Positions 12,049 to 12,985 of a stretch of DNA of 41,480 nucleotides are shown here, piece after piece. The stretch spans positions 67,493 through 108,972 of the forward strand of contig JAAUYU010000012.1 of assembly GCA_014804965.1 (NCBI GenBank), read 5' to 3'. Under the pieces are notes generated by a model. That model was not told the origin of the DNA and ran no database searches. It was given only the letters and a program-made list of their open reading frames with translations. The position numbers and the translations under genes were made by a program. Numbering within the stretch: the first letter of the stretch is position 1; each line of letters starts with the position of its first letter. The DNA is from Desulfovibrio sp. GTDB taxonomy: Bacteria; Desulfobacterota; Desulfovibrionia; Desulfovibrionales; Desulfovibrionaceae.

Positions 12049-12103
12049 TGAGGCGCAGGCCGCTGACCTTTTTCAGCCGGCGCAGTACATCCGGGAGGAA
12101 GCC

Positions 12104-12985
12104 ATGCCGCGAAATATCCTGACCATCAGGGAACTGGGTTCGGAAACCAGCTGGACGCTCGTGCAGCAGGCCGTCGGCATTCCGGACGCCAAGCTGCAGT
12201 CGGATTTCATGACCGAAAAGGTGGCGTTGCTCGCCTTTGCCCGGCATTCGCTGCCGGAGCGCCTCTGCGTCACGGCCGCCGTGCGCCAGATGGGCGGCAC
12301 GACCATCTTTGAGGGCAGCCCCACCGGCGACTGGCATCAGGAAGTGAGCACCTTTCAGGCGCACCTTATACCCATTTTCGGCTACTACTTCGACTGCCTC
12401 TATACCTATGCCCTGCCTGTGACCACCTGGAACATCTCCGATGTGGACGCGCATTTTCCGGTCATCAATGCGGGCAGCCCCGATGCCCACCCGGCGCACG
12501 CACTCGCCGACATTGCCTGCATGCTGCGCCTCTCGCGCCATCTCGAGGGCGTGACCGCGGCCTGGGTGGGCTGCGCCAACGGTACCCTGTACTCCCTCAT
12601 CGAGACCACGGCGTGGTTCCCGTTCAGCCTGCGCGTCGCGGTGCCCCCGCAGATGGACATAATCGAGCTGGAAGCGAGGGCCGCGCGCATCGGGAGCGCC
12701 GTGGAGTTTGTGAAGACGCCTGAAGAGGCGGTGAAGGGCGTCAACTATGTGTTTGCCGGCTATCGGGGGACGCTCGATGCCGATGCGCAGGCCCGCTGGG
12801 GCATCACGCCGGAGCTCATGGCAAGGGCACTTCCGGATGTCAGGCTCTTGCTCAGCGCCTCGCCCGTGCGCGCCATCCCGGTCGCCACGGAAGTCCTCTT
12901 CAGCCCGGCATCGCAACTTGTTCGTCAGGCGGAGTACCGCCTCCGCGTCCACAAGCGCTTTTTGCACTGGGTTTTTGACTTCTGA
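12104..12985 (+). CDS. Divergent ornithine-carbamoyltransferase-like protein, probably not a carbamoyltransferase
   Basis: The 293-residue protein aligns by eye along its whole length with deltaproteobacterial OTCases: ILTIRELG near the start, VRQMGGTTIFEG, FPVINA, HPAHALADIACML, VGCANGTLYSLI and a closing helix ending HWVFDF. The catalytic signatures are eroded. The phosphate loop S-T-R-T-R reads SLPER (residues 49-53), the HPxQ carbamoyl motif reads HPAH (129-132), VGDGNN reads VGCANG, and the ornithine-binding HCLP is replaced by LSASP near 251. The reading frame is open and well coded, and the ATG at 12104 follows GGGAGGAA. I infer a recruited or regulatory paralogue, not a decayed gene. 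The fold assignment is firmer than the function. Confidence 0.7.
   Translation: MPRNILTIRELGSETSWTLVQQAVGIPDAKLQSDFMTEKVALLAFARHSLPERLCVTAAVRQMGGTTIFEGSPTGDWHQEVSTFQAHLIPIFGYYFDCLYTYALPVTTWNISDVDAHFPVINAGSPDAHPAHALADIACMLRLSRHLEGVTAAWVGCANGTLYSLIETTAWFPFSLRVAVPPQMDIIELEARAARIGSAVEFVKTPEEAVKGVNYVFAGYRGTLDADAQARWGITPELMARALPDVRLLLSASPVRAIPVATEVLFSPASQLVRQAEYRLRVHKRFLHWVFDF

Follow-up and report, generated by a model that had tools for sequence, protein, structure and literature searches.

Organization of the locus

The window, that is the whole 41,480-nt stretch of Desulfovibrio sp. DNA analysed here, carries at 12104..12985 a gene for a 293-residue protein (P0001) with the fold of ornithine carbamoyltransferase (OTCase) in which the signature motifs of that enzyme are missing. 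All window coordinates given here are on the plus strand, and the protein and its orthologues are referred to as type A. The gene begins with an ATG and its assignment rests on Pfam matches, orthologues and an AlphaFold2 model. A ribosome-binding site, GGGAGGA (12093..12099), lies in the sequence 4 nt 5' of the ATG, and 30 orthologues with the same beginning back this start, so that the open frame and the good ribosome-binding site of the preliminary description are confirmed. A scan for promoters and terminators at the gene found none.

The gene is solitary; it diverges from trxA-trxB and is convergent with a nuclease gene. The preliminary description was right on this isolation, whereas the thioredoxin adjacency that it reported is incidental. 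A thioredoxin link was considered and rejected, since trxA adjoins type A only in the closest relatives of the window (the subclade of L094-L096); this neighbourhood is local and without functional signal. The commonest neighbours of type A are, on one side, a divergent gph (phosphoglycolate-phosphatase-like HAD) and genes for a 4Fe-4S protein, metA, rrf2, nifU and nifS, and on the opposite side the nuclease gene, rpoD and dnaG. The genes downstream vary by clade (DUF4851, ThrE-like and others). Across the compared loci, no co-directional gene recurs constantly as an operon partner, and the gene context thus does not name a pathway.

Fold and family membership

The protein exceeds the Pfam cut-offs of OTCace_N (PF02729, 53.8 bits, E=2.9e-14) and OTCace (PF00185, 47.2 bits, E=3.3e-12). 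It scores 80.8 bits with TIGR00658 against a cut-off of 280.85 bits, which places type A outside the OTCase equivalog, and 99.3 with PRK00779 against a cut-off of 306; it falls far short of the cut-off of every NCBIfam OTCase model. The AlphaFold2 monomer model, computed with 30 orthologues as input, has a pLDDT of 90.7 and a pTM of 0.90, and its best PDB matches, with E down to 7e-23 and TM about 0.8, are all ornithine carbamoyltransferases. Type A is thus a two-domain ATCase/OTCase homologue in its domains and in its predicted fold. An OTCase fold over the whole length had been claimed from the sequence, with structure prediction proposed as the check, and both the two domain matches and the model agree with that claim.

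In OTCase, a Gln of the 80s loop extends into the neighbouring subunit, and a Trp takes this position in AOTCase and SOTCase (Shi et al. 2015, PMC4581275). Trp77 of the window protein (12332..12334) aligns with this Gln, in a gapped part of the alignment where the model confidence is low. Family membership and the conserved Trp77 at the 80s-loop position make a trimer the expected assembly.

Replacement of the active-site residues

The carbamoyl-phosphate site common to transcarbamylases comprises SxRT, HPxQ, HxLP and an Arg of β4, and the ornithine site of OTCase comprises DxxxSMG with N167 and K53 (Shi et al. 2015, PMC4581275). In Table 1 of that paper, T58, R106, H133 and Q136 each contact carbamoyl phosphate in OTCase, and R57 and R106 are found in all nine transcarbamylases. 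The preliminary description had read the loss of signature motifs in the window protein correctly: SLPER (residues 49-53, 12248..12262) stands for STRTR, HPAH (residues 129-132, 12488..12499) for HPxQ, and VGCANG (residues 155-160) for VGDGNN, the GCANG of residues 156-160 (12569..12583) being aligned with GDGNN. Its reading of HCLP as LSASP holds as a motif loss, with an adjusted register: the motif aligns as SASP (residues 251-254, 12854..12865), or as LSAS if a one-residue gap is shifted. HxLP is absent in either register and Pro254 (97%) is retained. Two losses go beyond that description, namely GYRGTLD (residues 219-225, 12758..12778) for the ornithine loop DxxxSMG and Tyr102 (12407..12409) for the carbamoyl-phosphate Arg of β4 (E. 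coli R106).

The replacements were counted in 45 non-redundant type A sequences (<90% identity, with pairs down to 35%). Glu52 occupies the T58 position in 43 of the 45, which never have Thr there, and the following Arg53 is present in 60/60. Arg is found at the R57 position in 0/45, and the SxRT motif is accordingly absent. The R106 position is Tyr, His, Phe or Met in all 45 (Tyr 36/45, His 4/45), none of which has the β4 Arg. His129 is conserved in 39/45 and His132 in 40/45, and the Q136 position is never Gln. Gly160 at the N167 position and Gly219 at the D231 position are invariant (45/45 each). The K53 position (residue 47) is Gln, Arg, Lys or Glu in type A and Arg47 in the window protein.

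The window protein has kept several residues that the preliminary description did not mention: Ser49, His129, Arg279 (E. coli R319) and Asn159, which corresponds to the first of the two Asn in GDGNN. Among the main carbamoyl-phosphate contacts, the window protein keeps only Ser49, His129 and Arg279. The last of these opens the C-terminal helix RLRVHKRFLH (residues 279-288, 12938..12967) and is conserved in 44/45; Arg281, His283, Arg285 and His288 are additions of type A to this helix, invariant or nearly so. The loss of R57 and R106 together with a Glu in the phosphate loop argues against carbamoyl-phosphate binding by type A.

Orthologues, conservation and selection

Type A orthologues were found in 33 of 37 same-genus genomes with 44-83% identity, and those extracted are uninterrupted and 292-302 residues long. 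When 84,980 species genomes were scanned with two peptides conserved in type A, 51 loci were recovered. All carry the name Desulfovibrio, Desulfovibrionaceae or deltaproteobacterial MAG, and D. piger ATCC 29098 is among them. Type A is also present in two further Desulfovibrionaceae genera, g16 and g39. Matches of 23-31% in other families of the order were rejected as type A orthologues; those examined are canonical ArgF.

Conservation in the 45 sequences is higher at the former active-site columns than elsewhere in the protein (mean entropy of 1.13 vs. 1.61 bits, one-sided Mann-Whitney p=0.008). Comparison with native ArgF showed 22 columns that are ≥90% conserved in both families yet hold differing residues, about half of them at the catalytic motifs or in the C-terminal helix. 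The dN/dS of type A is 0.03-0.19 in eight species pairs, in which ArgF has 0.05-0.09, type A mostly evolving faster than ArgF. The gene is kept in reduced genomes of 1.4-1.6 Mb. The pattern fits neither drift nor OTCase constraint. The earlier view of a gene retained and not decaying is consistent with this distribution and selection. The two comparisons proposed along with it point the same way: purifying selection acts on orthologues whose frames are intact, and the replaced residues are conserved.

Type A is absent from G030 (96% complete), where a clean loss is seen beside gph-metA, and no match was found in G018, G019 or G036 (92% complete). Strict universality within the genus is refuted by the G030 loss, which shows that one species at least can do without type A, and G036 has no copy either. 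Nor is the pocket uniform, as the histidines differ in the outgroup genera g16 and g39 and in one symbiont with a reduced genome. In a 1.6-Mb genome (G035, locus L030; compare Candidatus Desulfovibrio kirbyi, L128), Glu52, His129 and His132 are lost together while the remainder is intact. This variant is natural material for asking whether the three residues form one site.

Origin from the native argF

In an IQ-TREE tree of 77 rows (LG+C20), type A forms one clade (100/100), and type B, another degenerate family, is its sister group (A+B, 100/99). The two are nested within the vertically inherited ArgF clade of the Desulfovibrionaceae (99/97), whereas the resident ArgF, of E. coli type, falls in another part of the tree. 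The sister position of g51 to A+B has support of 81/76; because the A+B branch is long (0.99), support for where exactly it branches within native ArgF is only moderate.

The genome of the window has an intact E. coli-type argF on another contig (G000:C6:40676-41671, L001), whose product shows STRTR, HPTQ, HCLP and DVWVSMG, as well as pyrB. A second, intact argF, for which the preliminary description proposed a search, is thus present with all motifs. All same-genus genomes examined carry E. coli-type ArgF, apart from one that is 63% complete. It also occurs in the type A carriers g16 and g39, and in g48, g52 and g54 without type A. In the presumed sister genus, argF, argG and argH lie together (L191, L192). 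In the window's genome, argG-argH is followed by a gene of unknown function and fusA, and argF is missing there (L190). Native ArgF and type A were found together in none of the sampled genomes. The tree nesting, the argG-argH pair without argF and this lack of co-occurrence indicate that type A stems from the displaced ancestral argF and not from the present argF.

The E. coli-type gene replaces native argF in six sampled Desulfovibrionaceae genera, most of the family having native ArgF; in the window's genome it adjoins a GNAT gene.

Type B is a more degenerate OTCase-derived family of few Desulfovibrionaceae, with loci at L145:1463-2452, L146:15611-16600, L147:2653-3534 and L149:3698-4741 and further loci at L216:1240-2283 and L217:994-2133. 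Its motif loss is unlike that of type A, and HPCQ is still present in the G063 copy. The type A sequence of one genome with type B is nearly the D. piger one. Type B immediately precedes the unknown argH-linked gene at three of the four main loci, and in G086 (L147) it is close to argH, ahead of that gene. The argH-linked gene, of ~290 codons, lies downstream of argH in most Desulfovibrio examined (L190:4717-6027, C10; L170-L189; alignment A2). Its product has no Pfam match, and its AlphaFold2 model (pLDDT 90) has histidinol dehydrogenase as the best PDB match, a partial one (E 3e-8, TM about 0.5). By this model, the arginine genes may have a further degenerate biosynthetic enzyme encoded next to them.

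Proposed function and alternatives

We consider it probable that type A is what became of the displaced native ArgF, kept with its pocket re-specified, most likely for binding a different small ligand as a sensor, regulator or scaffold. The simplest history would be a replacement of argF by the E. coli-type gene, after which the displaced gene was retained and re-specified. The vertically inherited Desulfovibrionaceae argF is the ancestor; the takeover of citrulline synthesis by the E. coli-type gene would have freed it, and the freed gene would have moved out of the arginine operon before its re-specification. Type A would retain the OTCase fold and probably the trimer. With R57, R106 and DxxxSMG lost and T58 changed to Glu, carbamoyl phosphate or ornithine could presumably no longer be held in the known mode, and the cleft would present a new conserved set of Ser49, Glu52, Arg53, Tyr102, His129, His132, Asn159, Gly160, Gly219, Arg279 and the HKR...H helix. 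The narrower proposal that another small ligand occupies the old cleft in one of the three roles has, in our estimate, slightly under an even chance. On sequence grounds, type A combines enzyme descent, loss of catalytic residues and purifying selection, as expected of a retained pseudoenzyme. The retained pseudoenzyme of the preliminary description is thus supported by the intact argF, the orthologues, the selection, the residue conservation and the fold, its lack of transcarbamylase activity being a prediction.

A new enzyme that works without carbamoyl phosphate, in which a His-His-Glu(-Tyr) cluster (Glu52, His129, His132 and Tyr102) would bind a metal or activate water, is a less likely reading. 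The four ancestral positions, T58, R106, H133 and Q136, are all carbamoyl-phosphate contacts of OTCase (Table 1, PMC4581275), and their successors Glu, Tyr/His/Phe, His and His co-occur in 38 of the 45 sequences; several of the 7 exceptions change both His at once, one of them with the Glu too. However, the histidines are not retained in g16 and g39, and an operon partner pointing to a pathway was not found. It is less likely again that the pocket became such a metal or new-ligand site for a new Desulfovibrio-specific reaction or sensing, with type B diverging in parallel near argH. If true, the His-His-Glu(-Tyr) reading would mean a transcarbamylase fold without transcarbamylase chemistry. 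That type A has remained a transcarbamylase whose carbamoyl-phosphate site is unusual and whose second substrate is new seems quite improbable when R57 and R106 are missing throughout, T58 is nearly always Glu and Q136 is never Gln, although Ser49, His129 and Arg279 are retained, Leu50 recalls the S-L-R-T of SOTCase and a Trp like Trp77 is found in AOTCase and SOTCase (PMC4581275).

Intact ArgF and PyrB in the same cells would offer partners for a regulatory or structural pseudo-subunit that joins their trimers and tunes activity, and the inactive dihydroorotase of some ATCase complexes is a precedent (PMC4581275). However, type A comes from native ArgF and lies apart from argF in the genome; because the resident ArgF belongs to a different lineage and is only weakly and partially similar, mixed trimers are unlikely, which makes such a role improbable. 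Least credible is a functionless, decaying leftover of the replaced argF. The mostly faster evolution relative to ArgF, the absence from G030 and the lack of hits in G018, G019 and G036 would fit decay, as would the more degenerate look of type B. This reading is already contradicted by selection and conservation: dN/dS is well below 1, the sampled frames are open, the new residue set is conserved over pairs down to 35% identity, and the gene is retained in the reduced 1.4-1.6 Mb genomes.

Under the favoured reading of a displaced and re-specified ArgF, a homologue from a different lineage would have taken the place of a core biosynthetic enzyme, which would then have been retained and rebuilt instead of being lost. 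Type A, which the gut species D. piger also carries, is a defined protein family for asking what the transcarbamylase fold can do without carbamoyl phosphate. Type A genes exceed the Pfam OTCase cut-offs and may be labelled ornithine carbamoyltransferase in annotations.

Comparison with known systems

Type A resembles OTCase (ArgF; TIGR00658/PRK00779) in fold, length, both Pfam domains and vertical descent from Desulfovibrionaceae ArgF, but differs in the replacement of SxRT, HPxQ, HxLP, DxxxSMG, K53, R106 and N167. The knotted transcarbamylases (AOTCase, SOTCase and YgeW/YTCase) are likewise superfamily members with altered second-substrate sites, and type A shares the Leu after Ser with SOTCase and the 80s-loop Trp with AOTCase and SOTCase. 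However, they retain the carbamoyl-phosphate site (SxRT, β4 Arg and HPxQ), which type A does not. The inactive dihydroorotase partners of bacterial ATCase are, as type A is predicted to be, catalytically dead biosynthetic homologues that have been retained, but they have another fold and a known structural partner, whereas type A has no known partner.

Many transcarbamylase homologues without essential motifs are mentioned in general terms by Shi et al. (2015, PMC4581275) and belong to the same broad category as type A; the parts of that paper used here give no family, conservation, origin or Desulfovibrio member. A search of the open-licence literature yielded no relevant paper on OTCase pseudoenzymes or on OTCase paralogues in Desulfovibrio, and neither the type A family, its displaced-argF origin nor the parallel type B was found reported there. 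Thus, the retained pseudoenzyme is a known category that is, as far as searched, new for the OTCase fold, and its origin is well sampled, with ancestor-like genera and a second relic, type B, represented alongside type A.
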